From: a virus
IMG/VR virus record: IMGVR_UViG_3300028364_000023
Location: 37,424 to 101,423 of that record
DNA: 64,000 nucleotides
Strand: one strand, 5' to 3'
Shown piece after piece: positions 14,476 to 50,275 of the stretch. Numbering within the stretch: the stretch's first letter is position 1; every line of letters begins with the position of its first letter. The translations under genes and the position numbers were made by a program. The notes under the pieces are model-generated. The model was not told where the DNA came from and did not search any database. It was given only the letters and a program-made list of their open reading frames with translations.

Positions 14476-15238
14476 ATAAGTTTCCTACGTTACAGCTCAT
14501 GACCGAATGTTCGGTTGCAGGAATGCTACACCCAATCATTTCTTTAGCTGGATCTGCGTTGTAGTACTCTTCTAAATAGTCAATTGATGGAACACCGTCT
14601 GTGCCCACAAAGGACAGCAAGTGCCCGGCCCCTGAGCTTGCGGAATCGTGTAGTCCACTCATTCCCCGGAAGCTAAAGTCGTGACACTGAATAGGAACGC
14701 CATCGAGTGATGCGCCAGTTAGATTAGCATACTTTGTAAGTATTTCGCGATACTCTTTTGCGAGCGTAGCAACTACGCTTGGCTTCCACAGCTCTGAGCT
14801 CATCACGCTTTCAATGTAGTTAACCAGCCAGTAAAACTCTGGTACTGTATTCTTGACTGTAAGAACAGCTACTTTTTCCGGCACACTTACGCCTTCTGGC
14901 AGACCTTTAATCTCTAAAGGCAAATAGCCCAAGTCGTGTAATGCTTCGACGTGATCCATTGGCACAGCGCCGTCACCTAAGCTAGAGTCAAGTCTTCTTT
15001 GATACTTGGCTACAACTTCTGCCTTTGGCTTGTTGAAGAAAGTTTCGTTCCACATATCAATGAGGAACCATTTGCAGAATCCCTGTAGTCCGAACACTAC
15101 AGTCTCAGTAGCGTTGCCTTTGTACAGGCGCATACTGCGTGGTGTAAAGTTGCTGTAGACTAGCTCAGTACCTTCTGGGTACTGGCGTCTGTGATCTGCT
15201 TTGTAAAAGTCGATTGCTGAAAGGGCGTCTAATCTCAT
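14387..15238 (-). CDS. Nicotinamide phosphoribosyltransferase, N-terminal piece
   Basis: 283 residues. Family signatures: DFYKADHRRQYPEGTELVYS, FTPRSMRL, GLQGFCKWFLI, HDFSFRGMSGLHDSASSGAG, FVGTDGVPSIDYLEEYY, then SIPATEHSVM, whose EH corresponds to the catalytic Glu-His (His247 in human NAMPT). Homology stops right after SVM(S). About 35 unrelated residues from the HNH-flanking DNA follow before a stop. A functional enzyme would require association of the two pieces or RNA-level joining. Its role is nicotinamide salvage to NMN, or the NARP1-type transferase reaction. Confidence 0.85.
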   Translation of the reverse strand: MRLDALSAIDFYKADHRRQYPEGTELVYSNFTPRSMRLYKGNATETVVFGLQGFCKWFLIDMWNETFFNKPKAEVVAKYQRRLDSSLGDGAVPMDHVEALHDLGYLPLEIKGLPEGVSVPEKVAVLTVKNTVPEFYWLVNYIESVMSSELWKPSVVATLAKEYREILTKYANLTGASLDGVPIQCHDFSFRGMSGLHDSASSGAGHLLSFVGTDGVPSIDYLEEYYNADPAKEMIGCSIPATEHSVMSCNVGNLSKLIGEQLEENPNLSLEDAHRRVLQIAKG

Positions 15239-15251
15239 ATGTTTCTCCTAG

Positions 15252-15602
15252 TTATTTTTCGTCTGTAATTGATTTAAAGTGATGTGACATTGACTGCCAG
15301 CTAGTGAGTTCTTCGTATTTTAGACTCTGCTTCTGATTGCATTTAGGACAATTCCACATAATTCCGTCTCGATCCCAATAGTCTCCTCCAGTGCATCCGT
15401 GTGGTTCTACGTAGTAATTTTTTTGTATAGCATCAGTATCGCGCAGTGTTGAGAACTTTTTACATTCAGGACACTTGTACTTTAGCTTGCCCTGATTTAC
15501 TTTGATCTTTAAACGAAGCTTATCAATCTCAGTTTCAGCAGAGTCCATCTCGTCGATTAGTGTTCGATTTGATTTATAGTCTCTTAAACTCTCAGGTATC
15601 AT
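15252..15602 (-). CDS. Zinc-ribbon protein with coiled-coil N-terminus
   Basis: 116 residues: an N-terminal helical stretch (DEMDSAETEIDKLRLKIKVN) and then two zinc knuckles, CPECKK and CPKCNQ, flanking a CTGGDYWD segment. Looks like a nucleic-acid- or protein-binding zinc ribbon. Overlaps the macro-domain gene by 11 nt, so it belongs to the nicotinamide/ADP-ribose operon. Confidence 0.6.
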   Translation of the reverse strand: MIPESLRDYKSNRTLIDEMDSAETEIDKLRLKIKVNQGKLKYKCPECKKFSTLRDTDAIQKNYYVEPHGCTGGDYWDRDGIMWNCPKCNQKQSLKYEELTSWQSMSHHFKSITDEK

Positions 15603-18552: not shown

Positions 18553-19443
18553 TTACTTGCCTAGTTGCATTTGTCCTGCTACTGTGCTAAGCATCTCTGC
18601 TGGCATAAACACCTTGTTACTGGAGCTAGCCATTGATTCCATTACTTGGAAGCTTTTGTACACCTTGTACTCTGGTGTCATTGACTCGCCCATGATCTTG
18701 TTGACTTGTGCTTCGGCCTCAGCTTTTTCAACGTCGATTTTTCGCTGCATGGTCTGTTCCTGTAGCTTACGATCAAGTTGTACCTTGCTGATTTCAAGCT
18801 GTGCAGCTTCTTGGTTAATCATCTCACGACGCTCTGCCGCATTTTCTTGCGCTTTCACAATAATTGTTGGGTATGCAAGGTCTGCAATGCCAATATATCG
18901 CACCATAAACGGAGTTCGTTCTGCGATGCTCTTAGATAGGCGTTCTGATAGCTGTGCGTTAATGGCCTCACGTGAGCTTGCAATTTCTGCAATAGTGTAC
19001 TGTGATAGGAACTCCCGTGCCTCGGCTCGGATGATATCTCGAGCGTAGGTCATATATACTTTTTCTAGCGGAATCATATACATACGCTCGCTATCGCCCA
19101 TTGGTGCCGGCTGTACTTTATTAAACACCTGCTCAAAGTCTTTAGACGCAAGTGACATAGTTGCCCGGATCTCGAACGTCATTAACAGCTTGTCTTGCGG
19201 CATAAACAGGTCCATGCTTTCTTTAAAGCTGCGGTCACTGGCATCAAGTACAACTAGCTTGTCACAATATGCATAACACATATCAAGTCGGAACTTGGAA
19301 GTTGGAATAATATTTGCTTTATATCCCGATTGAGACATAACCTTTGCAACTTGAGCAGGCCCTACCTCTACAACTTGGCCGCAGCCAACCATTGCAAGTG
19401 TAACTGCCATTACGGCAAATAGTTTCAGCATTGTCTTTTTCAT
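18553..19443 (-). CDS. SPFH/prohibitin-like lipoprotein
   Basis: 296 residues with a lipoprotein signal (LFAVMAVTLAMVGCGQ; lipobox VGCG). A SPFH/Band-7-like body follows (FEIRATMSLASKDFEQVFNK, YARDIIRAEAREFLSQYTIA, ERTPFMVRYIGIADLAYPT), then a long charged coiled coil (QENAAERREMINQEAAQLEI ... RKIDVEKAEAEAQVNKIM). This is the architecture of prohibitin/HflK-type membrane scaffolds, which often regulate FtsH or organise membranes. Related phage proteins occur in T4-like genomes. A role in envelope homeostasis is inference. Confidence 0.75.
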   Translation of the reverse strand: MKKTMLKLFAVMAVTLAMVGCGQVVEVGPAQVAKVMSQSGYKANIIPTSKFRLDMCYAYCDKLVVLDASDRSFKESMDLFMPQDKLLMTFEIRATMSLASKDFEQVFNKVQPAPMGDSERMYMIPLEKVYMTYARDIIRAEAREFLSQYTIAEIASSREAINAQLSERLSKSIAERTPFMVRYIGIADLAYPTIIVKAQENAAERREMINQEAAQLEISKVQLDRKLQEQTMQRKIDVEKAEAEAQVNKIMGESMTPEYKVYKSFQVMESMASSSNKVFMPAEMLSTVAGQMQLGK

Positions 19444-21416: not shown

Positions 21417-22607
21417 TTAACTTGTTTCATGATTAAGTATTGTAAGTTTATACAACCGCTTAATATTTTCGTCACTAGTCATAGCAGCTTCACCTGCAGG
21501 GAATCTTCCGCCAATTACATTCTGTGCGTATTCTAAAGATATGTCTGGATCTTTTGCAATAGCTGCCTCGCCCGGTGGCCACGTACCGTCGACTACGTGA
21601 AGTGCATACGCAAGGGACAAATAGCTTTTGCTAGCTATATAAGCAAGCGCTTCTTTGGTAAGGTCTTGTAAATCCCCGAATATTTCGTAGTTGGGTCCAT
21701 CTTCATCTTCATCTTCGTCTTCATTATTTTGTTCTAGTTGTTTAATTGTCTTTGCAGTGACACCTTTCAAATATTTAATAGATCCCGTTACATTTGTAGC
21801 AACTAGAGTTTGTAGTTGTTGATCTAATTCGACTAGACCGTTGGCTTGATATAGTATTATTAAATATCTTTTTATTGACTTTGCGTCCTTAACCCTCAAC
21901 AGCATTGTTTCAATTTTTGCACTGCGCCGCGGAGCATCCATTTGTACTAATTTTTCAATAAGACTTTTTAGATTCTCTAAGTCGGCTTTCATTACGTCTC
22001 GACTAGCAGTGGCTTGTTGGCCAACCTCAGTTTCTCCTCCGACTAGTTCGGCGTACTTGTTGCTGTCTAGTCCTGTTTGTTGATTGAATTCTTCCATAGA
22101 TAATGATGTATCTTGCTGGTCAAAATACTCTGGCCCTTTCTTTGTACTAACTGTCATGGCCCACATAGCACCATCTGACTGACGAAAGAAATAGATTAAT
22201 GTAACGCTGAAGTCACGAAAGTATTGTTCAAAATGGTTTTGAGTGGGTTTGGTTGTGCACCAATCACTGTTCTTGCCGTGAAAGCAACTGGCGTCCTTGT
22301 CCAATGGTACTACAATTAGCCACTCGTCAGTTTCTTCTAATACGTAGCTATTTCCTTTTTTAGTGCGAGCTTTTTGTTCTGAAGAGCTAGGGCGTTCGTC
22401 AATGGCTGTTACGTATTCAGTAAATGCAGACCATCCCTGTTTGCCCCACCAATCAATATTTCTTTCTTGACCTGAGATGCGATTGGCACTTACTAATTTT
22501 TTGAAGATATCAAAAGCACTTGCTACCTCTGTAGGATCCGCCTCCTGGCTAAACTTCTGTTGTACTTCCTTGTAACCTTCGGTTAATTTAAACTCGTTAT
22601 ATCTCAT
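21417..22607 (-). CDS. WCT/GEAAI family protein 1, predicted head-packaged
   Basis: 396 residues and the shortest repeat region of five paralogues. The N-terminus MRYNEFKLTEGYKEV resembles the T4 capsid-targeting sequence (M-x-x-x-EF) with an L-x-E cleavage site at residues 8-10. The shared domain (residues about 15-180) has RNIDWWGKQGWSAF, VPLDKDASCFHGKNSDWCTT and VTLIYFFRQSDGAMWAM. A helical linker with an acidic NEDEDEDEDG run follows, then only two 27-residue repeats (WPPGEAAIAKD, FPAGEAAMTSD). Function unknown; see the paralogues at 22634, 23956, 25746 and 39804. Confidence 0.75.
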   Translation of the reverse strand: MRYNEFKLTEGYKEVQQKFSQEADPTEVASAFDIFKKLVSANRISGQERNIDWWGKQGWSAFTEYVTAIDERPSSSEQKARTKKGNSYVLEETDEWLIVVPLDKDASCFHGKNSDWCTTKPTQNHFEQYFRDFSVTLIYFFRQSDGAMWAMTVSTKKGPEYFDQQDTSLSMEEFNQQTGLDSNKYAELVGGETEVGQQATASRDVMKADLENLKSLIEKLVQMDAPRRSAKIETMLLRVKDAKSIKRYLIILYQANGLVELDQQLQTLVATNVTGSIKYLKGVTAKTIKQLEQNNEDEDEDEDGPNYEIFGDLQDLTKEALAYIASKSYLSLAYALHVVDGTWPPGEAAIAKDPDISLEYAQNVIGGRFPAGEAAMTSDENIKRLYKLTILNHETS

Positions 22608-22633
22608 ACTGGTCCTTTATTTTTGTATGCCTA

Positions 22634-23944
22634 TTAACCGATGCCAAACCGTTTTTTGTATGCATTCCACGCCGATTGTGCTTTACGTATTGCATTCTCT
22701 CCTTTTAAAAATCGATCTTCTAGTACTTCTGTAGCATATCGAAAAGAGTAATTAGTGTGCGTGGCAATTGCAGCTTCTCCAGGAGGCCATGCTTTGTTGA
22801 GTACTGCATGTGCATACATAAATGAACCGGAGCTATTGTTGGCAATAGCAGATTCGGCTTCGGGCCACTCGCGTTTTAATATATCTCGGGCGTATAACGC
22901 TGCATAATAACCATCTTGTGCAATTACAACTTCGCCCAGAGGCCATCTACCCTTTATTACTATAGCAGCATAAGCAACAGCCAATGCTCCTCTACTAGCT
23001 ATATAAGCAAGTACTTGTTTAGTAGGATTTCGGACATTATTTATTACTTCACCAGGCGTAGCATTTCTTTCCATTATTTTAACTGTCTTTATACTAACGT
23101 CTTGTAAATATCTAACAGCATCAGTAGAAATATTAGCAACAAGAGTTTGCAGTTGTTGATCTATTTCCACTGGCCCACTTTGCTTGTGTAATATTTTAAA
23201 ATATTCTTCTATTAATCTTGGATCCTTAACCTGTAACATCATTGTTTCTATTTTTGCACTTCGTTGCGGAGCATCCATTTGTTCTAATTTTTTAAGAAAG
23301 TCCTTTAGATTTTTTAAACTAGCTCGCATTTCTTTACGACTAGCAGCAGTTTTTTTACCTATCTCTGTTTTACCGCCTACCATCTCAATGTACTTGTTGC
23401 TGTCTAGACCTGTCTGCTTGTTGAATTCAATTACATCAAGCGATTGGTCTTTTTGATTAAAGTATTCTGCTCCTTTATTTGGAGCAACAGCCATAGCCCA
23501 CATGGCGCCATCTGACTGACGGAAGAAATAGATCAGTGTAATAGCTTTGCCACGGAAGTACGATTCGAAGTGTGCTTGCGTTGGCTTGGTGGTACACCAG
23601 CTACTTTTTTTGCCGTAGAAACAACTGGCGTCTTTGTCTAGTGGCACTACAATGAACCAGTCAGCAGATTCCTCTATTACGTGACTCGTGCCTTTGTTTT
23701 TTCGCATCTTTTGTTCAGAAGAACTAGGTCTTTCATCAATTGCAGTCACGTACTCACTAAATGCGGACCACCCCTGTTTGCCCCACCAATCAATATTTCG
23801 TTCTTGGCCTGAGATGCGATTGTCACTGACCAACTTTTTGAACACGTCGAAAGCAGACGCTACCTCAGTAGGATCTGCTTCCTGACTAAACTTCAGTTGT
23901 ACTTCCTTGAAGCCCTCGTTTAGTTTAAATTCGTTATATCTCAT
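22634..23944 (-). CDS. WCT/GEAAI family protein 2, predicted head-packaged
   Basis: 436 residues. N-terminus MRYNEFKLNEGFKEV with the L-N-E processing-like site, then the shared domain with DKDASCFYGKKSSWCTTKPT. Four repeats of the pattern W-P-x-G/A-E-x-x-I-A-x-D ... A-Y-A-x-x-V/I-L (WPLGEVVIAQD, WPEAESAIANN, WPPGEAAIATH, FLKGENAIRKA). The last residues KRFGIG also end the paralogue at 25746, indicating recent exchange. In tandem with genes 1, 3 and 4, spaced 12-27 nt apart. Confidence 0.75.
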   Translation of the reverse strand: MRYNEFKLNEGFKEVQLKFSQEADPTEVASAFDVFKKLVSDNRISGQERNIDWWGKQGWSAFSEYVTAIDERPSSSEQKMRKNKGTSHVIEESADWFIVVPLDKDASCFYGKKSSWCTTKPTQAHFESYFRGKAITLIYFFRQSDGAMWAMAVAPNKGAEYFNQKDQSLDVIEFNKQTGLDSNKYIEMVGGKTEIGKKTAASRKEMRASLKNLKDFLKKLEQMDAPQRSAKIETMMLQVKDPRLIEEYFKILHKQSGPVEIDQQLQTLVANISTDAVRYLQDVSIKTVKIMERNATPGEVINNVRNPTKQVLAYIASRGALAVAYAAIVIKGRWPLGEVVIAQDGYYAALYARDILKREWPEAESAIANNSSGSFMYAHAVLNKAWPPGEAAIATHTNYSFRYATEVLEDRFLKGENAIRKAQSAWNAYKKRFGIG

Positions 23945-23955
23945 AATAGATCCTG

Positions 23956-25719
23956 TTAATTGTTACGAATCGGATTTAAAAAGCTTGAATACGCCCTTCT
24001 AAAATCATAATCTTTATCAATAGCAGCTTCACCTGGAGGCCATTTGCCTTTTATCACATCCTTTGCATAGGCATACGCAGTTGCAGCCTCTGCGGCAATA
24101 ACAGCCTCACCTTGTGGCCATCTGCCTCTTATGACATTTCTTGCGTAGTCAATAGAAGTATATGCGTCTGTAAGAATAGCAGCTTCACCTTCTGGAAACC
24201 TTCCTTTAATTATCAGGTCAGCATATTTATAAGCTGTTTCGGCATCTTGGGCAATAGCAGCTTCTCCTTCTGGAAACCTTCCTTTAATTATCTCGCGAGC
24301 ATACTTATAGGCCGTATCTGCATCTGAGGCAATAGCAGCCTCACCTTGTGGCCATCTGCCTCTTACGACATTTCTTGCGTAGTCAATAGAAGTATATGCG
24401 TCTTGTGCAATAGCAGCTTCACCAGGCGGCCACCTAACACGATCGTTGCCAAAGGTACTTCTGTTGATTACTGCGCTGGCATATCTATAGGCTGATTGTG
24501 TATCGGTAACAATAGCAGCTTCTCCCGGGGGCCAGGGGCCTTTAATTATCTGGTCAGCATACATATAGGCTGCTTCTGCATTTGTGGCAATAGCAGCTTC
24601 GCCGGGCGGCCACCTAACTTTCTCGTCCCAAGGCCCACCACCGTCGTTGATTACTTCTCTAGCATAGCTGAACGCTGATTGTGCATCTGCGGCAATAGCA
24701 GCTTCGCCTAGAGGCCACTGACCCTCGATCACATATCTTGCGTATGCGACTGCTAGTCTACCTGTGTCGGTAATGTATTCCATCGCTTCTTTAGAAGGGT
24801 GCCGCAAGTTTTTCATCATATGCCTGAGATCTTCTTGCCTTCCTAGTATTTTAACTGTCTTTACACTAACATTGTTCAAAAATCTAATACCAACCGCCCC
24901 ATCACCGCCAGCAACTAGACTTTGTAGTTGTTGATCTACCTCCACTGGTCCGCTATAATTATATAGTGTCCTTAAATAATCTTTTATTAGTCTAGAGTCT
25001 TTAACTTTCAACAGTAAGGTTTCAATCTTTGCACTTCGGCGTGGGTTACTCATTTGTTCTAATTTTTTAATGTAACCTGTTAAGGTGTTAAAGTCGGTCT
25101 TCATGATGTCTCGATTAATAGTGGCCTTTTGTCCAACATCAGTTTTACCGCCAACTAGCTCGGTGTATTTGTTGGGATCCAGACCTGTTTGCTTCTCGAA
25201 TTCTTCATCATCAAGCGAATCATCCTGCTGATCAAAATACTCTGCTTTTTTATTGGGATAAACTGCCATAGCCCACATGGCTCCATCTGACTGACGAAAG
25301 AAGTAGATCAGTGTAACGTCATAGTCGCGAAAGTAAGATTCGAAATGGCCTTGTGTTGGCTTAGTTGTGCACCAATCGCTTTTTTTACCGTGAAAGCAAC
25401 TGGCGTCCTTGTCCAGTGGGACGACAATAAACCACTCGGCAGTTTCTTCTAGTACATGACTTTCACCTTTGCCTTTTCGAGCTTTTTGTTCGGCCTCGCT
25501 AGGTCGTTCATCAATGGCGGTCACGTATTCAATAAACGCAGGCCACCCCTGTTTGCCCCACCAATCAATATTGCGTTCGTTGCCTTTGATGCGATTAGCA
25601 CTTACTAGTTTTTTGAACACGTCAAAAGCACTTGCTACTTCAGTAGGATCTGCTTCTTGACTGAACTTCTGTTGTACTTCCTTGTATCCCTCGTTTAGCT
25701 TAAACTCTTGATATCTCAT
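23956..25719 (-). CDS. WCT/GEAAI family protein 3, predicted head-packaged, nine repeats
   Basis: 587 residues. N-terminus MRYQEFKLNEGYKEV, then the shared WCT domain and linker. Nine repeats follow, most exactly 27 residues (81 nt), each built as GRWPxGEAAIAxDAxTAYxYAxxVI. Two are lengthened by inserts (GGGPWDEKVRWPPGE; RSTFGNDRVRWPPGE). Neighbouring repeat units are nearly identical in DNA, for example around 24100-24180 and 24345-24420, showing recent duplication. Each unit is predicted to be two short helices, giving an alpha-solenoid suited to protein binding. Confidence 0.75.
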   Translation of the reverse strand: MRYQEFKLNEGYKEVQQKFSQEADPTEVASAFDVFKKLVSANRIKGNERNIDWWGKQGWPAFIEYVTAIDERPSEAEQKARKGKGESHVLEETAEWFIVVPLDKDASCFHGKKSDWCTTKPTQGHFESYFRDYDVTLIYFFRQSDGAMWAMAVYPNKKAEYFDQQDDSLDDEEFEKQTGLDPNKYTELVGGKTDVGQKATINRDIMKTDFNTLTGYIKKLEQMSNPRRSAKIETLLLKVKDSRLIKDYLRTLYNYSGPVEVDQQLQSLVAGGDGAVGIRFLNNVSVKTVKILGRQEDLRHMMKNLRHPSKEAMEYITDTGRLAVAYARYVIEGQWPLGEAAIAADAQSAFSYAREVINDGGGPWDEKVRWPPGEAAIATNAEAAYMYADQIIKGPWPPGEAAIVTDTQSAYRYASAVINRSTFGNDRVRWPPGEAAIAQDAYTSIDYARNVVRGRWPQGEAAIASDADTAYKYAREIIKGRFPEGEAAIAQDAETAYKYADLIIKGRFPEGEAAILTDAYTSIDYARNVIRGRWPQGEAVIAAEAATAYAYAKDVIKGKWPPGEAAIDKDYDFRRAYSSFLNPIRNN

Positions 25720-25745
25720 AATGGTCCTTTATTTTTGTATTCCTA

Positions 25746-27482
25746 TTAACCGATGCCAAACCGTCGTTTATACTTCGGCCATAAGAACGTGTCGGCACGT
25801 ATTGCATCTTCACCTTCTAGGAATTGATCTTCTAGTACGTCTATGGCATACTCGTATGCTGCATCAGATAAAGTTGCCATAGCAGCTTCTCCTTCGGGCC
25901 ATTCTCCTTCGATTATTCCGCGAGCGTATACTAATGCACCGTAAGCGTCCTGAGAAATAACAGATTCGGCTGCTGGCCACTCACGTTCTAATATTTCAGT
26001 AGCATACATTGCAGCGTTGTACCCATCCAGCGCAATAGCATCTTCACCGGGTTTCCAACGTCCTCTTATTACCATTCTTGCGTACTGATAAGCCGCAAAT
26101 GATTCAGTAGCAATAGCATCTTCACCAGGAAGCCATCTTTCTTTTTTATTTTTTCCTTGATTAAGCACTTCAATAGCATACCTACTGGATGTAGAAGGGT
26201 CTTGTGCAATAGTCTCCTCACCTGCTGGCCACTTGCCTTTAATTATCTCGCGAGCATATTCTAGAGATGTTTCGGCATCTTTTGCAATAGCAGCTTCACC
26301 TGGCGGCCATGGCTTGTTAAGTACATCACGTGCGTATATTAATGATCCTCTAGGGCTTTGTGCAATAGCTGCCTCACCTGGTGGCCACCTAACTGGTTGT
26401 TCTTTGTCTTTGTTAATGACATCCAGTGCATAAATTGCTGCTCCTAGGCCGTCTTCCGCAATAGCAGCTTCGGCTTCGGGCCACGGACCTTTTATTATTC
26501 GACGTGCATACGCAGCAGCCAATGCTCCTTTACTAGCTATATAAGCAAGTGCTTGTTCAGTAGGGTGTAGCATATTGCTCATTGATTGATTAGGAGGTAG
26601 GTTTCTTTCTAGTACTTTAACTGTCTTTACACTAACATTTTGTAGATATTTGATAGCATCTTCAGCAGAGTTAGCAACTAAAGTTTGTACTTGCTGATCT
26701 ACTTCTACCGGCCCGTCGACTTCATGCAGTATATAGAAATATTCTTCTATTGACGTCGGATCTTTAACAACCAGCATCAGTGTTTCAATTTTTGCACTTC
26801 GTCGCGGGCTCCCCATCCGTCTCAGCTTTCCAATGTAACCTTGAAGAGTCTTCAAGTCAGCTTTCATCACGTCTCGACTAGCAGTGGCTTTTTGACCAAC
26901 TTCTGTCTTGCCACCAACCATTTCGATGTACTTGTTGCTGTTTAGGCCTGTTTGCTTATTAAATTGAGCAGACGACAACGATTCATCTTGTTGATCAAAG
27001 TATTCTGATCTTTTATTTGGGCTAACAGCCATGGCCCACATGGCTCCATCTAACTGACGGAAGAAATAAATTAGCGTAATACTACTGTCACGAAAGTATT
27101 GTTCGAAATGTGATCGAGTGGGTTTGGTTGTACACCAATCGCTTTTCTTACCATGGAAACAACTGGCATCTTTGTCTAGTGGCACTACAATCAACCACTG
27201 ACTAGAATCTTCTAATACGTGACTTTCGCCTTTCTTTGTGCGCTTGTCTTGTTCTGAAGAACTGGGCCTCTCGTCTATGGCTGTCACGTACTCAGCAAAT
27301 GCAGACCACCCCTGTTTGCCCCACCAATCAATATTGCGTTCTTGACCAGATATACGATTTGCATTTACTAGCTTTTTGAACACGTCGAAGGCAGATGCTA
27401 CTTCTGTAGGATCTGCCTCTTGGCTAAATTTTTGTTGTACTTCTTTAAAGCCCTCGTTTAACTTAAACTCGGTATATCTCAT
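25746..27482 (-). CDS. WCT/GEAAI family protein 4, predicted head-packaged, nine repeats
   Basis: 578 residues. N-terminus MRYTEFKLNEGFKEV, with the L-N-E site at residues 8-10. Shared domain with DKDASCFHGKKSDWCTTKPT, then nine more divergent repeats (WPEAEAAIAED, WPPGEAAIAQS, WPAGEETIAQD, WLPGEDAIATE and others) and the KRRFGIG terminus. First gene of the four-gene tandem, preceded by a TATAAATA late promoter and AGGATC. Late expression agrees with a virion protein. Confidence 0.75.
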   Translation of the reverse strand: MRYTEFKLNEGFKEVQQKFSQEADPTEVASAFDVFKKLVNANRISGQERNIDWWGKQGWSAFAEYVTAIDERPSSSEQDKRTKKGESHVLEDSSQWLIVVPLDKDASCFHGKKSDWCTTKPTRSHFEQYFRDSSITLIYFFRQLDGAMWAMAVSPNKRSEYFDQQDESLSSAQFNKQTGLNSNKYIEMVGGKTEVGQKATASRDVMKADLKTLQGYIGKLRRMGSPRRSAKIETLMLVVKDPTSIEEYFYILHEVDGPVEVDQQVQTLVANSAEDAIKYLQNVSVKTVKVLERNLPPNQSMSNMLHPTEQALAYIASKGALAAAYARRIIKGPWPEAEAAIAEDGLGAAIYALDVINKDKEQPVRWPPGEAAIAQSPRGSLIYARDVLNKPWPPGEAAIAKDAETSLEYAREIIKGKWPAGEETIAQDPSTSSRYAIEVLNQGKNKKERWLPGEDAIATESFAAYQYARMVIRGRWKPGEDAIALDGYNAAMYATEILEREWPAAESVISQDAYGALVYARGIIEGEWPEGEAAMATLSDAAYEYAIDVLEDQFLEGEDAIRADTFLWPKYKRRFGIG

Positions 27483-27504: not shown

Positions 27505-27512
27505 TATTTATA
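27505..27512 (-). promoter_or_regulatory. T4-type late promoter for the WCT/GEAAI tandem
   Basis: TATAAATA reading leftward, 23 nt upstream of the start at 27482. The same context (AATAATAGAA ... CAGGATCTATTATG) precedes the fifth family member at 41222. Confidence 0.65.
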
Positions 27513-37117: not shown

Positions 37118-37438
37118 TTATGCTTCTTTCACATAGCTAAGAATTTCTTCAAGTGTCCATTCTTTCATTTCGGGCATCAGCTTGATTGCAACATCACCCT
37201 TCTTTACATCGGTTGCACTAACGTTTAAGAACAAACACACATCTTGCTCATCCAGTGTGTCGCCGCGGTTAGCTGCGCACCAAAGTATACTCATTAATAC
37301 ACAATTAGTAGCGCTGCGTATTTGTGTAATTTCGTTTTCTATTACATACTTTTTGCCAGTTACAAAAGCATTGTGATATTCCTGTGTCTTTTTAGAAATC
37401 TCTTCAAAGTATTTTTGTGTTGCTACTGTTATTGCCAT
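37118..37438 (-). CDS. Phage protein of unknown function
   Basis: 106 residues, helical, MAITVATQKYFEEISKKTQE ... LDEQDVCLFLNVSATDVKKG ... WTLEEILSYVKEA. No domain recognised. Confidence 0.5.
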   Translation of the reverse strand: MAITVATQKYFEEISKKTQEYHNAFVTGKKYVIENEITQIRSATNCVLMSILWCAANRGDTLDEQDVCLFLNVSATDVKKGDVAIKLMPEMKEWTLEEILSYVKEA

Positions 37439-38109: not shown

Positions 38110-38421
38110 CTATGAGGTAGTCGAAGCTGGAGAGCCAGTAATTATAACAGCGTTGTATATTCCTCGTCCGCCTGTTTTGTCGCCAACTCTAGCAACTCCA
38201 ATGTTGCCGGCCAGCACACTAGCACTGCCTGAGATAATCTGATCGAGATGTCCGCAGTCAGTTATTACCATATCACCTATTCTGGCGCTGGCCATCTTGT
38301 CAACTGTAACAGATGGAGAACCTGTTATTATAGTTCCTGCTATCTCTATTGGTTTATTGTGACTAGGATGTTTGCAGGTACCAAATGTACGATCTCCAAA
38401 TCTAGCCAGTCCTCTGCTCAT
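38110..38421 (-). CDS. PAAR-repeat spike tip protein
   Basis: 103 residues with repeated beta motifs: RFGDRTFGTCKHPSHNKPIE, GSPSVTVDKMASARIGDMVI, CGHLDQIISGSASVLAGNIG and VARVGDKTGG. This PAAR fold sharpens the tail-tube spike (T4 gp5.4 equivalent). It overlaps the next structural gene by 4 nt, as in T4-like cyanophages. Confidence 0.88.
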   Translation of the reverse strand: MSRGLARFGDRTFGTCKHPSHNKPIEIAGTIITGSPSVTVDKMASARIGDMVITDCGHLDQIISGSASVLAGNIGVARVGDKTGGRGIYNAVIITGSPASTTS

Positions 38422-39194
38422 TCTGCTGCTATCGCTTGTAGTTGATCCAAATTAGCATCTACTGTGTCTACACCCGCTGAGATGTTATCAGCTTGAATGT
38501 TAGTAGCATCAGCACTTGCTTTTACAGCATCTGATTTGGCTTTAACTGCTCCACTATTTCTTTCTTTGATTATGTCTTGTGGGCTCTTATCGTCAGAAAG
38601 TGATTCTGCCATACTGTTAAATGCTCCGCCGAGTCCACTACCTATTGCGCTTAGAGCAGCGTTTGCGCCGCCACACGCCATGATACGTGCGTCATTTGCA
38701 ATTTCCAGGACAGTAGTGATGATGTCACTAACAAAGGCACTAACTTTATCATATGCGTCTTTTGCAAAAGCAGACACTGCTGCAAAGGCTGAACCTATAG
38801 CCGCTGTCACAGACGCTACTTTTGCTAAAAATTTGTCTAATATACTTTGTTTTTCTGGGTCACCCTGAACAGCATCAAACAATTGTTGTATCTTAGTGTT
38901 TATAGCAGCAACAGCGCTGTCTAATTTTGCTCGAGCCGCCGAGACAGCTCCTTCAGCAAAGTCATTAACTTTTTTAGATATATTACCAACTGATTCTATA
39001 GTTTTATTAATTGCGGCATCGGCCGCATTCGCAGCGCCAGCAGCAATTTCGTCAACTGCTGACTGAGCAGTACCTAATAGTCCACAGCTATCGGCAGCCA
39101 CTAGTATAAGGTCATCAGTGAGCCCCGAAGTACTTGCAACTTGGTTATCTACTAGAGTTTTAACATTTATTAGAGGTGCTGTTGCGGTTGTCAT
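38418..39194 (-). CDS. Ala-rich coiled-coil structural protein next to PAAR
   Basis: 258 residues, rich in Ala and Ser, long predicted helices (AANAADAAINKTIESVGNIS ... ARAKLDSAVAAINTKIQQLF), and a central hydrophobic segment (ASVTAAIGSAFAAVSAFAKD). T4-like cyanophages carry a similar Ala-rich protein beside PAAR, sometimes annotated DUF7217. Probably a virion component injected or linked with the spike. Confidence 0.55.
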   Translation of the reverse strand: MTTATAPLINVKTLVDNQVASTSGLTDDLILVAADSCGLLGTAQSAVDEIAAGAANAADAAINKTIESVGNISKKVNDFAEGAVSAARAKLDSAVAAINTKIQQLFDAVQGDPEKQSILDKFLAKVASVTAAIGSAFAAVSAFAKDAYDKVSAFVSDIITTVLEIANDARIMACGGANAALSAIGSGLGGAFNSMAESLSDDKSPQDIIKERNSGAVKAKSDAVKASADATNIQADNISAGVDTVDANLDQLQAIAAE

Positions 39195-39803: not shown

Positions 39804-41222
39804 CTATATTTTATAAGGTTCTACATCTTCACCATTAACGAACTTCACGTACTGTTTCCACAGCGTATCGTCCCAGAAATTTTTCATAGCCTCTTCGCCC
39901 TCAGGCCATCTCTTTTTTAGTACATCAATTGCATATCTGTATGCATAATATCCATTACTAGCAATAGCAGCTTCTCCGGCAGGAAATGGGCCTTCTAGCA
40001 CTTCATTGGCATATCTATATGCGCTACGGTAGTCTTTAGCTATAACCTCTTCGGCCTCGGGCCATCGGTCTTTTATTATGTCGCGAGCATATTCTAGAGC
40101 TGTTTCTGAGTCTGTAAGAATAGCAGCTTCGCCCGGCGGCCACAGACCTTGCATAGCATCCTTTGCATAACGAATTGATGAAGTGGTATCTTGGGCAATA
40201 GCAGCTTCGCCAGGCGGCCAAGGACCTTCTATTACGTTAATTGCATACGACGCTGCTAGCTCTCCTACAGTTGCGATATATGATACCGCTTCTTTAGAGG
40301 GGTATTGTATATTTAGGATCTTCTTCCGAACGTTGGTTTCTTGCTTTTGAAGTATCCGAATTGTCTTTGAAGTAACTCCCTTTAAAAAGTTAATAGCAGA
40401 GCGTGCGGTGGTAGCAACTAGCGTTTGTAATTGTTGGTCTACTTCTACTGGACCGGTAGCGTCGTGTAATAACTCAAAATACTCTCCTAATAACTTCTGG
40501 TGTTTAATTTTTAGCAGCAATGTTTCTACCTTTGCGCTTCGTCTAGGGGTAGCCATTTGTTCTAATTTTTCAATGTAGTCTTGTAGAGTCTTCAAATCAG
40601 CATTCATGCTGTCTCGACTAGCAGTGGCTTTTTGTCCAACATCAGTTTCACCGCCGACCATTCTAATGTATTTGTTGTAGCTTAGTCTTGTTTGCTCGAG
40701 GAACTCCTCATCATCAAGCTGTTCATTTTGCTGATCAAAATAATCTACATCGCCTTCTGGATAAACAGCCATGGACCACATTGCTCCATCTGACTGACGG
40801 AAGAAGTAGATTAGTGTAATACCATCGTCACGAAAGTATTGTTCAAAATATGCTTGTGTTGGCTTAGTTGTGCACCAATCGCTTCTCTTGCCGTGAAAGC
40901 AACTGGCGTCTTTGTCCAGAGGCACCACAATCAGCCACTCGGCAGTTTCTTCTAGTACGTAGCTATTGCCTTTTTTAGTGCGAGATTTTTGTTCTGCTTC
41001 GCTAGGTCTTTCGTCAATGGCGGTCACATATTCAATAAATGCAGGCCACCCCTGTTTACCCCACCAATCAATATTGCGTTCATTGCCTGAGATGCGATTA
41101 GCACTGACTAGTTTTTTAAACACATCAAAGGCACTCGCCACTTCAGTAGGATCTGCCTCTTGACTGAACTTCTGTTGTACTTCTTTGTAGCCTTCGTTTA
41201 GCTTAAACTCTTGATATCTCAT
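39804..41222 (-). CDS. WCT/GEAAI family protein 5, predicted head-packaged
   Basis: 472 residues. N-terminus MRYQEFKLNEGYKEV with the L-N-E site, shared domain DKDASCFHGKRSDWCTTKPT, and five 27-residue repeats (WPPGEAAIAQD, WPPGEAAILTD, WPEAEEVIAKD, FPAGEAAIASN, WPEGEEAMKNF). Lies alone between glutaredoxin and NrdB, over 12 kb from its four paralogues, with the same upstream late-promoter context. Probably moved or copied as a unit. Confidence 0.75.
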   Translation of the reverse strand: MRYQEFKLNEGYKEVQQKFSQEADPTEVASAFDVFKKLVSANRISGNERNIDWWGKQGWPAFIEYVTAIDERPSEAEQKSRTKKGNSYVLEETAEWLIVVPLDKDASCFHGKRSDWCTTKPTQAYFEQYFRDDGITLIYFFRQSDGAMWSMAVYPEGDVDYFDQQNEQLDDEEFLEQTRLSYNKYIRMVGGETDVGQKATASRDSMNADLKTLQDYIEKLEQMATPRRSAKVETLLLKIKHQKLLGEYFELLHDATGPVEVDQQLQTLVATTARSAINFLKGVTSKTIRILQKQETNVRKKILNIQYPSKEAVSYIATVGELAASYAINVIEGPWPPGEAAIAQDTTSSIRYAKDAMQGLWPPGEAAILTDSETALEYARDIIKDRWPEAEEVIAKDYRSAYRYANEVLEGPFPAGEAAIASNGYYAYRYAIDVLKKRWPEGEEAMKNFWDDTLWKQYVKFVNGEDVEPYKI

Positions 41223-41244: not shown

Positions 41245-41252
41245 TATTTATG
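41245..41252 (-). promoter_or_regulatory. T4-type late promoter for WCT/GEAAI protein 5
   Basis: CATAAATA reading leftward, same distance to the ATG and same flanks as the promoter at 27505. Confidence 0.55.
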
Positions 41253-41262
41253 ACCGTATACT

Positions 41263-42372
41263 TTAGAATCCAATGTCGAAGTCTTCGTTTTCGTCATCTC
41301 TACGCATGATGCTCACTTTATACTGACCATTGTCCTGCTCTTGTGGAGATGCCTGCGTTTTAGAAATGTCAAGCCAATTTTCCATAAACTTTAACGGATT
41401 TGACTTTGGCAGTGTATGCTCGCTTTTAACTTTCAAGAACCTGTACACTGGCTTTGAACAAAAAAGTGCCCATTGAGATAGAAGTGATTTATTCAATCCT
41501 ACCAGTTCTCGCCCTTCTGAGAACAAATACTCAGTCCAGTCCAGTTCACCATTCACAACCTCATCAACCAAATCTTTGATCTGATCAGCGCATTGCTCCA
41601 TGGCAATTTGTCCACGCTCGGTTTTTAGTTCTGCTGTGATAACACGCTTGTCAAATTCAGCATGAACTTCTAGTTCGTCCTGTGCAATCTTTTGAACAGC
41701 TTTCCCAATAGGCCCAAACATGCCAGTGTCGCAAATAGCAAACGTCACAGCAAAACTAGATGCAAACTGAATGCGCTCAAGACATAACAGTGCCACAAAC
41801 ACCATGAAAGCCTTGTTATAGGTATCTTGATTGTTCTCAATCATACCCAGAGCATACATGTGTGAAGCTTTGTACGCTTCACTAAACACTCTGGAAACAG
41901 AAGTCATGCGAGCCATAGCCTCTTCTACTTTCAACACTTCGGCTATGATCTCTGATGGATCATCAAAGCTGCTGCGAACAATTTCAGAATAGGTTGCAGA
42001 GTGCAAAACTTCTTGGTCGCTAATTCTTTGGATTGCAGCCCATAATTCGGATGATGTAATAAATGGAGCCATAACAGGAGCGATTGAACGACACGCTACA
42101 CTATCCGCTTCCCATTGCCATGCCAGAGTCTTAATCATCATCTCATAAGTTGATTTTGAGCATGTTTTAAATTCTACGTTGCATGAACTGTAGTCGAACT
42201 CATTTTCATCCCAGTCAAGAGATTTACAAACTTTGTACAACTCCCATATTTCAGGAAATTTTTTATTAACAGTATCAAACAATCCATTTGGTTGATCCCC
42301 CATTAGAAGGGAAACATTATTGTAATCCGTCTTTTTCGTGTTAAATATAGTATCTTTTATAGTATCTTTCAT
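41263..42372 (-). CDS. nrdB: Ribonucleotide reductase class Ia, small subunit NrdB
   Basis: 369 residues. Diiron ligands visible in WQWEADSVACRSIAP, ISDQEVLHSATYSEIV, EVLKVEEAMARM and DELEVHAEFDKRV; the radical Tyr is probably in the LHSATYSE helix. C-terminal NEDFDIGF would contact NrdA. It converts NDPs to dNDPs with NrdA. The first about 35 codons (MKDTIKDTIFNTKKTDY ... NGLFDTVN) duplicate, in diverged form, the N-terminus of the HNH protein just upstream, indicating a replacement 5' end. KDTI is itself a tandem 12-bp duplication. Confidence 0.92.
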   Translation of the reverse strand: MKDTIKDTIFNTKKTDYNNVSLLMGDQPNGLFDTVNKKFPEIWELYKVCKSLDWDENEFDYSSCNVEFKTCSKSTYEMMIKTLAWQWEADSVACRSIAPVMAPFITSSELWAAIQRISDQEVLHSATYSEIVRSSFDDPSEIIAEVLKVEEAMARMTSVSRVFSEAYKASHMYALGMIENNQDTYNKAFMVFVALLCLERIQFASSFAVTFAICDTGMFGPIGKAVQKIAQDELEVHAEFDKRVITAELKTERGQIAMEQCADQIKDLVDEVVNGELDWTEYLFSEGRELVGLNKSLLSQWALFCSKPVYRFLKVKSEHTLPKSNPLKFMENWLDISKTQASPQEQDNGQYKVSIMRRDDENEDFDIGF

Positions 42373-42384
42373 GCTTTCTTTTCC

Positions 42385-43440
42385 TTAGTTAGTAAATAAT
42401 TTAAACTGATATATTCCCATTTTTTCTAGTCTTCTTGTGTCATTGTATTTTAAATTTTGGGAAAGCGAAGAATAGCATAAATTTAACCTTTTAGCAGCAT
42501 CTTTTATACAACCATATAGTGTGTTATTTATTTCGACTGACTTTGCTCTAGGATTTTTGCTTCCTGTTATGTTATCTTTGTACTCTTTAGATCGCTTCTG
42601 TCCATAATTCGGATTTTCAGCCCCCATCTTTCCAAACATCCCATTCCCTTCACCTTTGGCCTTTTCACTTATTAGATTTTTTGTTTCCTCTGAATGGCTT
42701 TTTCCGTAAAACGGATTATTAACTCCTGAATGATTTTCGCTTTGAAGTTTTCTAGTTTCATCAGAATGCTTTTTTCCATAAAAAGGACAATTGGTTGGTA
42801 TACTACAACGCTTTCTAGCTTCTATTTTAAATTTTATAACATTCTCTGGATTTGCTCTCCATAAATTTCCACCATCCAATAGCTTTTGTTTGTGAGCTTC
42901 TGATATAGGTTTCCCGAATAGTGGGTTATTCTCTGCTGTTCGAGAAATTCTAATTTCCTCTATTCTCCACGGATTATTCTCATAATAAATTTTCATCTTT
43001 TTAGATTGTGTTCGCCTGCCCTGCACAACGAGAGATTGGTATGATTTGGAATTTAATCTATTTTCATATCTCCCAAAATTGTTCATCCCTTTGAAGGCTA
43101 TTGTCATATCCCCACCATACGTTTTCCATAATATATGGTGGGCTATAAAATGCTGCCTAAGACTCAATTCTGCACCATTCCAAGGGTTTATTTTTAAATT
43201 GGTATATTCAGGAAACATATTTTTTGATTTTGGGCATATATGATGCAATTCATACTTAACATTATATTTGTTGTAATTAACACAATAATAGATAAATCTA
43301 ATATACCTATTAAGATAATGTGCATTATTTGGGATTGTATTTAAGATATCAAACAAACCAGATTCCTGTTCTCCAAGCAACAGCTTAGGCTTTTCGTAGT
43401 CTGTTTTTTCTGTGTTAAAAACGTTTTTATCAATTGTCAT
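42385..43440 (-). CDS. HNH homing endonuclease with an NrdB N-terminal leader
   Basis: 351 residues. Residues 1-35 (MTIDKNVFNTEKTDYEKPKL ... ESGLFDILNT) are the original NrdB N-terminus. Then comes an HNH nuclease: VKYELHHICPKSKNMFPEYT ... LSLRQHFIAHHILWKTYGGD. NUMOD3-type repeats follow (NCPFYGKKHSDET, NNPFYGKSHSEET, NPNYGQKRSKEY), with a C-terminal IENR/NUMOD1-like helix (LYGCIKDAAKRLNLCYSSLS). AT-rich against its neighbours. The mobile gene sits in nrdB's 5' end and is expressed through the nrdB start signals. Confidence 0.88.
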   Translation of the reverse strand: MTIDKNVFNTEKTDYEKPKLLLGEQESGLFDILNTIPNNAHYLNRYIRFIYYCVNYNKYNVKYELHHICPKSKNMFPEYTNLKINPWNGAELSLRQHFIAHHILWKTYGGDMTIAFKGMNNFGRYENRLNSKSYQSLVVQGRRTQSKKMKIYYENNPWRIEEIRISRTAENNPLFGKPISEAHKQKLLDGGNLWRANPENVIKFKIEARKRCSIPTNCPFYGKKHSDETRKLQSENHSGVNNPFYGKSHSEETKNLISEKAKGEGNGMFGKMGAENPNYGQKRSKEYKDNITGSKNPRAKSVEINNTLYGCIKDAAKRLNLCYSSLSQNLKYNDTRRLEKMGIYQFKLFTN

Positions 43441-49525: not shown

Positions 49526-50275
49526 TTACTTTTTTTTTGAGCGATTGCGATCTATTGATTCACGCTTTTCACGACCCATTGGCACGTCACCGCCGGCAGC
49601 GGCGTCAGCAGCACCAAAGTCTTCGTCATCTAATGAGTCGATTCCGTCTTCTGAGCTGCTGTCGTCCATTGGATCTCCCATTTCATCGTCCATCGGATCA
49701 CCCATTGGTACTACAGGATCACCTTCGCCGGTCAACATGCTCACTCCTTGAGTTAGTGCAGTACGAGTTGACTCCAATGCAGTGTAAAGTGACTCAAGAG
49801 ATTGTTTAACTAATGCAACAAATGCTTCGCTTTTTTCTGAACCCATTTCGTCACGAATTGCATCTGCTAGTTCCAGCATGCTTTCTGTTTCCATTTCAGA
49901 CGTGTCTTCCATCCAGCCCGTAACACGATCAACCATGTCTTTAGAAGCCATTACGATCTGAGCAGTGTCTTCTGCACCTTCATTGACCTGCTTGACAGCT
50001 TCGTCTAGCGCATCAGAAATGTTGTCGTCACGCTCAGCAAGAGCAGTGTTTAACACTTCTAAGAACAATTTGTTCTTTTGAAATTCTGCTGTTTGTACAC
50101 TGTTGAAGCTTTCAGTAGTCTCAACGTTGAACACTTTGGTGCGCAGTTTGTTCCGAACATTCATTAACTGTTCTGTAGTAAACGCGTCGATATCAATCTT
50201 TGCGCCGAATTTCTTAGCAAGACTTTCATTTAAAGTCTTGGCTGTCTTTGGTTTTGAGAATTCTCTAATGTTCAT
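49526..50275 (-). CDS. Prohead core/scaffold-like protein
   Basis: 249 residues. N-terminus MNIREFSKPKTAKTLNESLA resembles a capsid-targeting sequence with an L-N-E site at residues 15-17. Long acidic helices follow (ISDALDEAVKQVNEGAEDTA), then a Met/Asp/Pro-rich linker (MGDPMDDEMGDPMDDS) and a basic tail (REKRESIDRNRSKKK). Helical, acidic, with disordered ends, like T4 prohead core components. Late promoter upstream. Confidence 0.6.
   Translation of the reverse strand: MNIREFSKPKTAKTLNESLAKKFGAKIDIDAFTTEQLMNVRNKLRTKVFNVETTESFNSVQTAEFQKNKLFLEVLNTALAERDDNISDALDEAVKQVNEGAEDTAQIVMASKDMVDRVTGWMEDTSEMETESMLELADAIRDEMGSEKSEAFVALVKQSLESLYTALESTRTALTQGVSMLTGEGDPVVPMGDPMDDEMGDPMDDSSSEDGIDSLDDEDFGAADAAAGGDVPMGREKRESIDRNRSKKK

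Follow-up and report, generated by a model that had tools for sequence, protein, structure and literature searches.

Leader-Bearing Paralogs of a Large Phage: Candidate Internal Head Proteins with a Shared Domain and Exchangeable C-Termini

Introduction

It has long been asked what proteins travel in the heads of large phages and what role they play on entry. Such head proteins can decide host range, as internal protein I (IPI) of T4 does. The same question is raised by five paralogous genes, A–E, in a 64,000-nucleotide stretch of viral DNA (the window), which corresponds to positions 37424–101423 of the 101,423-base virus record IMGVR_UViG_3300028364_000023, a genome fragment. An initial annotation of the window described the gene products as a diversified family that enters the capsid by way of a T4-like leader and is injected. 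Are these proteins packaged, and what might they do afterwards? With a probability of roughly 0.6, we conclude that A–E are internal head (ejection) proteins of a large myophage of the T4 superfamily.

Results

Five Paralogs with One Architecture

In the list of open reading frames (ORFs) of the window, all five paralogs start with ATG and lie on the minus strand, and each encodes a ten-residue leader, a domain with a characteristic WCT motif (the WCT domain), a linker and a C-terminal series of GEAAI repeats. Four of them form a tandem array in which D is the first gene: D (25746–27482; 578 amino acids, nine repeats) starts with MRYTEFKLNEG, C (23956–25719; 587 amino acids, nine repeats) with MRYQEFKLNEG, B (22634–23944; 436 amino acids, four repeats) with MRYNEFKLNEG and A (21417–22607; 396 amino acids, two repeats) with MRYNEFKLTEG. 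The fifth, E (39804–41222; 472 amino acids, five repeats), which again starts with MRYQEFKLNEG, is dispersed, approximately 12 kb from D. The five MRYxEFKL[NT]E|G starts (the bar marks the predicted cut) are thus found where the initial annotation had placed them. It had also claimed a shared domain of about 170 residues, and the first 190 or so residues of the paralogs are indeed 78–83% identical to D; DKDASCFHGKKSDWCTTKPT occurs exactly in C and D and in variant forms in A, B and E. Counted by regular expression, the WPxGEAAI unit occurs 2, 4, 9, 9 and 5 times in A–E, mostly at intervals of 26 residues, which reproduces the earlier counts exactly.

Leader Peptide and Predicted Cleavage

Residues 1–10 of D (27453–27482, minus strand) form a predicted capsid-targeting propeptide with a predicted cut after E10 (LNE|GFK). 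The corresponding codons of the other paralogs, also on the minus strand, are at 22578–22607 (A), 23915–23944 (B), 25690–25719 (C) and 41193–41222 (E). All five have LNE or LTE at residues 8–10, which is the [LI]xE motif of the T4-type prohead protease gp21. In T4 IPIII the first 10 residues are enough for targeting, and residues 8 and 10 matter for processing; an aspartate at position 10 permits targeting and inhibits processing (PMC9026906). The hydrophobic residue 8 and E10 of A–E match IPIII in position. The M-x-x-Y-x-EF pattern that had been read into the leader is off by one: the actual pattern is M-x-Y-x-EF (M-R-Y-x-E-F-K-L-x-E), with aromatic residues at positions 3 and 6, whereas the targeting residues of IPIII are at 4 and 7, and with a spacing to E10 that differs by one.

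We sampled the family by two profile scans of viral contigs (the best 80 of 180 candidate loci, plus 66 loci; individual relatives are given below by locus number, L). An iterated profile search over the scanned loci yielded 162 distinct complete N-termini, or 115 at a 60% identity cut, with E-values that are optimistic, the search set having been preselected. Among representatives with an ATG start, 76 of 92 (83%) have an [LI]xE that ends at residues 5–24, compared with 45% of 589 neighboring ORFs (Fisher p ~1e-11) and 20% of internal windows. Given how many neighboring ORFs have it, the motif is weak evidence by itself; some of these ORFs may themselves encode core or head proteins. Leader length varies among 29 close homologs, but conservation of the aligned glutamate is 90% or more, and 27 of them show a full [LI]xE at the boundary. 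Between the paralogs A–E, the synonymous divergence (dS) of the first 190 codons is 1.2–1.4, near saturation. The ratio of nonsynonymous to synonymous divergence (dN/dS) is 0.07 in the leader (10 codons only), 0.05 in residues 11–60, 0.12 in the domain core and 0.31 in the linker and repeats. Since dS is near saturation while dN/dS in the leader is low, the leader is old and constrained and not a fresh copy.

Leaders of this kind are also seen on other proteins. In L005, a 182 amino acid protein (14932–15480, minus strand) without a Pfam or PHROG match starts with MKIKDLLKE|GLSPVLFHATS and is possibly a further packaged protein. In the window, the product of 49526–50275 (minus strand), which starts with MNIREFSKPKTAKTLNES and whose PHROG 14154 match (E 5.3e-9) is to a virion structural protein, has an REF start and an LNE motif as well.

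Head-Gene Context and Virion Evidence

In L013–L017 a single copy of the family gene is found after the gp20 portal gene and a gene for a 70 amino acid core67-like protein, and before the genes for a core68-like acidic protein, a Peptidase_S77 protease (E ~1e-24), the scaffold and the major capsid protein. The core67-like gene of these loci has a leader of its own (MRFTEILKE or MKSREFLKE). In L161/162 the family gene has gp20 on one side and the protease on the other; it adjoins gp20 in L174 and L187/188 and follows gp23 by a few kb in L130/132/134/137, L170, L056, L176/181 and L180. Except for the protease, these head-gene labels come from our own profiles, for which seeds were chosen from these operons by their position and their likeness to the T4 gene order, and not from curated models. 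We claim adjacency for the named lineages only, because the distances in long contigs are scattered. A T4-type protease was found in 7 of 12 and 18 of 50 relatives' records searched.

A distant homolog in phage PA5oct, EST35_0205 (QCG76086.1), carries the record annotation “structural protein, ESI-MS/MS” (electrospray ionization tandem mass spectrometry), and it starts with MKLFEVFTLYE|DKAEL, in keeping with the leader rule. Its homology is seen by tblastn from L012b (3e-22), by the family profile (9e-11) and by Foldseek from the model of D (probability 1.00). From the kept [LI]xE, the head-operon copies and this virion annotation we infer, with good support, that the proteins are targeted to the capsid and lose their leader, as first proposed; we regard packaging with cleavage as very probable.

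Fold of the Shared Domain and the Repeats

An AlphaFold2 model of D built from 37 sequences has a mean predicted local distance difference test score (pLDDT) of 92.7 and a predicted template modeling score of 0.82. Residues 1–7 are the only segment of at least three residues with a pLDDT below 50; in the model the leader is disordered, and both the domain and the solenoid are confidently predicted. After the leader comes the WCT domain (residues 11–190; 26913–27452, minus strand), which opens with a helical part and continues as a five-strand alpha/beta part with the WCT motif in it. From there a linker leads to the C-terminal alpha-solenoid, which starts at residue 301 (25746–26582, minus strand) and is composed of two-helix units of approximately 26 residues (WPxGEAAIA-D). 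In the alignment of 68 family members, G111, W116 and C117 are invariant. Structure prediction of the domain, one of the checks proposed in the initial annotation, thus gives a confident model; in Foldseek neither the whole model of D nor a 190-residue model has a significant PDB match, and a sequence profile yields none.

Could the WCT domain be a catalytic effector that works by thiol chemistry at C117 or has a distantly PcfJ-like fold, and could the solenoid be the receptor for its substrate? The three residues that are invariant in 68 divergent members speak for it, as does a weak Foldseek similarity of D to PcfJ-like models (probability 0.6–0.8). We rejected PcfJ (PF14284) as the identity of the domain, as there is no Pfam match and the local hhalign probability is 0.2% against four phage PcfJ sequences from relatives, a set that includes one near-duplicate pair. 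These results and the missing solved-structure match make a catalytic effector unlikely; it would in any case be compatible with packaging and does not exclude it. We consider it most likely that the WCT domain is a shared module, for delivery or associated with DNA, to which different C-termini can be joined. It may serve in core docking, in DNA or lipid binding, or as an enzyme around C117.

Copy Expansion and Exchange of C-Termini

In a tree of the close branch, the window copies and the copy of a sister phage form one clade (support 100/100) and four copies of Salicola phage SCTP-2 form another (100/99). The expansions in the two phages are therefore independent. Paralogs C and E are sister sequences in this tree, though they are approximately 14 kb apart. 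Several copies, in tandem or clustered, are found elsewhere as well: L074 (six in the stretch), L152 (six), L184 (five), L173 (four) and L130 (three). In the sister phage, L009, which is approximately 87% identical in nucleotides around its ortholog of D (L009 10001–11737), the D copy joins directly to sequence matching the region below A. Copies A, B and C are missing, so that the locus has one copy in L009 versus four in the window phage. Between D and its L009 ortholog, dS is below 0.1 over the first 190 codons and 0.56–0.58 beyond. Because dS jumps at about codon 190, we place a recombination breakpoint near the boundary of domain and linker.

The C-termini of the 68 members match DUF4116 in eight cases and LRV, LRR, HEAT, GYF_2 and GH19 in one or two each; LRV/HEAT is found in L184, GYF_2 in L074 and GH19 in L066. 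In the last (L066 9001–11271), the leader MRVTEFIAE|GYKE is kept and a GH19 chitinase-class domain at residues 446–589 replaces the repeats. For single members, PHROG matches to endolysin or chitinase are in agreement. DUF4116 (PF13475) has no Pfam match in the window proteins and does have one in an SCTP-2 homolog. It is the conservation of leader and domain, while the C-termini are exchanged, that gives the family the look of a carrier with payloads. The repeat region itself looks swappable and made for binding targets. The diversification claimed for the family is evident in the independent expansions, the one versus four copies in the sister phage, and the fast-changing repeats.

These observations also bear on a second alternative, that the proteins are packaged and cleaved internal head proteins that serve prohead assembly or DNA condensation and have no function in the host. 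The single-copy homolog inside the core and scaffold operon of L013–L017 would fit such a role. T4 IPIII is partly a core or scaffold helper of this kind. Loss of IPIII slows head assembly (PMC9026906). However, the copy difference between sister phages, the independent tandem expansions with fast-evolving, binding-type repeats, and the hydrolase in place of the repeats in L066 all fit a payload better, and we consider a pure assembly role rather unlikely, slightly more so than the catalytic one.

Family Extent and Database Matches

In profile searches the window proteins match only PHROG 17056 and PHROG 28193, both of unknown function, with E-values of 1e-27 to 1e-40 over the domain (A versus PHROG 17056, 3.8e-40; B also matches PHROG 17056). 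The two match 52 and 51 of the 68 family members, respectively. No Pfam match of the window proteins exceeds the threshold, apart from borderline scores of HTH_35 on the repeats; this candidate, sub-threshold or borderline throughout, we judge to be a chance match. NCBIfam holds no family at E < 0.02 for them. In Pfam, NCBIfam and PHROG searches the mature part has no match to T4 IPI–III or Alt. The T4 internal proteins themselves have little in common beyond the leader. A PADLOC search gave no match for D and three relatives and one weak match for the relative L096 (LmuB, E 0.0056). The silence of PADLOC says little about anti-defense, because its library consists of defense systems and not of anti-defense proteins.

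Among known phages, a direct tblastn search with D reaches only Salicola phage SCTP-2, and the repeat region alone as query reaches none. PA5oct, MIJ3-type phages and CcrBL9 were reached through the L012b branch. D as query has no cellular homologs among genome contigs, and a profile search found no family member in Atu_ph07, a phage with virion proteomics. A–E belong to a widespread and undescribed family of phage proteins that has no Pfam or NCBIfam name.

Late-Promoter Octamers and Neighboring Genes

The initial annotation had also noted two late promoters. A T4-type late-promoter octamer, TATAAATA (27505–27512, minus strand), lies 22 nucleotides upstream of D, and a late-promoter-like octamer, CATAAATA (41245–41252, minus strand), lies 22 nucleotides upstream of E; ATAAATAATAGAA and ACAGGATCTATT upstream of the ATG are common to both genes. 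Neither octamer exceeds its chance frequency in the window (4 observed versus 4.7 expected, and 2 versus 4.3). It is only their placement that is suggestive. Across the family, [TC]ATAAATA at most 80 nucleotides upstream is found for 19 of 93 representatives and 70 of 788 controls, a modest enrichment (Fisher p = 0.0015).

Several further genes of the window, all on the minus strand, can be recognized. The gene at 18553–19443 encodes a Band 7/SPFH-domain protein (PF01145) with a lipoprotein-like start. A PAAR-motif spike-tip protein (38110–38421; PF05488, E 2.3e-12), approximately 1.4 kb from E, gives this dispersed copy a structural neighborhood. Adjoining the PAAR gene is one for a 258 amino acid alanine-rich protein (38418–39194) with a weak, sub-threshold Baculo_PEP_C match. 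The gene at 41263–42372 is, by eye, that of the small subunit of ribonucleotide reductase, NrdB, in an intact-looking copy. Directly before it, the ORF at 42385–43440 begins with approximately 31 residues that resemble the NrdB start and continues into a NUMOD3-containing, homing-endonuclease-like protein (PF07460). It looks like an endonuclease gene that bears a duplicate 5′ end of its neighbor.

Discussion

Several findings weigh against reading A–E as internal head proteins. No gp21 (Peptidase_S77) was detected on the 101-kb record, which is a fragment; the window paralogs are not in a head cluster within this contig; and in many long relatives the family gene lies 13–130 kb from the protease. 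The virion evidence is a database annotation of a distant homolog whose C-terminus differs, and the [LI]xE motif is, as noted, common among neighboring ORFs. The N-termini of L173, L184 and L185 are without [LI]xE, perhaps reflecting another protease specificity; these three are tandem family arrays in very large phages. The leaders of L076, L078 and L079 end in L[VI]D|GYK, with aspartate at the cut position, and given the behavior of D10 in IPIII they are a natural test case. That A–E are never packaged, and are intracellular late or middle proteins (decoys, regulators or toxin-like proteins) whose amphipathic start carries [LI]xE by chance, would agree with their place outside any head cluster and with the frequency of the motif, but we hold this to be improbable in view of the PA5oct virion annotation, the head-operon copies, the E10 conserved across leaders of varying length and the low dN/dS of the leader.

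How, then, would A–E work as internal head proteins? At least D and E may be expressed late, possibly from the T4-type late promoters. Docking to the prohead core would be the task of the ten-residue leader. A cut by the prohead protease (gp21, Peptidase_S77) after [LI]xE would then remove this leader, so that the mature protein starts with GYK or GFK. For docking and cleavage the argument is strong, because it draws on the conservation of the leader, its family-wide position, the head-operon location in some relatives and the homolog in a virion proteome. The mature protein would be packed with the DNA and leave the head with it at infection, a probable course by analogy with the T4 internal proteins. 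Once inside the host, the alpha-solenoid might bind host or defense proteins, and duplication together with recombination at the boundary of domain and repeats could vary the range of targets; the structure, the unequal evolutionary rates, the tandem expansion and the exchange of C-terminal modules point in this direction. We advance a target-binding role in host takeover or counter-defense only tentatively.

It is tempting to speculate further that the leader and WCT domain may be a general head-borne delivery chassis of large phages of the T4 superfamily. Such a chassis would combine a packaging tag and a common carrier with exchangeable payloads (GEAAI and DUF4116 solenoids, LRV/LRR, GYF, and a GH19 hydrolase), would multiply by tandem duplication and would be injected at infection, much as bacterial effectors are mounted on a secretion signal. 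If this is true, the chassis is a modular protein-delivery system whose payloads are swapped naturally. The leader and domain together offer a sequence handle that predicts packaged, probably injected proteins in more than 100 phage contigs.

How do A–E compare with known systems? PHROG 17056 and 28193 match them over the domain and differ in having no described domain or role. Salicola phage SCTP-2 has proteins 34, 37, 45, 46 and 48 (and 40), which are 32–36% identical over the first 190 residues, have leaders of the form ...LFE|SYK and likewise form a tandem multi-copy cluster, but which expanded independently and have other types of C-terminal repeat (DUF4116 in protein 45). EST35_0205 of PA5oct shares the WCT-type domain, has a leader ending in LYE and is annotated as detected in the virion; it differs in its length (482 amino acids), in an unrelated C-terminus, and in being related to the L012b branch (approximately 34% identity) and not to that of the window. 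The ejection proteins of SPN3US and phiKZ-type giant phages are packaged in large numbers, and a prohead protease related to gp21 cuts them behind a short motif whose last residue is glutamate, but their propeptides are mostly longer than 100 residues (PMC5694885). The T-even internal proteins are described as a diverse injected set of defense proteins in which only the capsid-targeting sequence (CTS) is conserved (PMC3012670). Like T4 IPI, IPII, IPIII and Alt, A–E are a diversified set that shares a 10-residue leader with a hydrophobic residue 8, E10 and a gp21-type [LI]xE, with late-promoter octamers upstream of D and E. They differ in being much larger (396–587 amino acids versus approximately 8–20 kDa for the internal proteins), in sharing a domain of approximately 190 residues and a solenoid and not the leader alone, and in having aromatic residues at 3/6 and not 4/7. 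By sequence A–E are not members of the IP or Alt families; they would work like CTS-bearing internal proteins.

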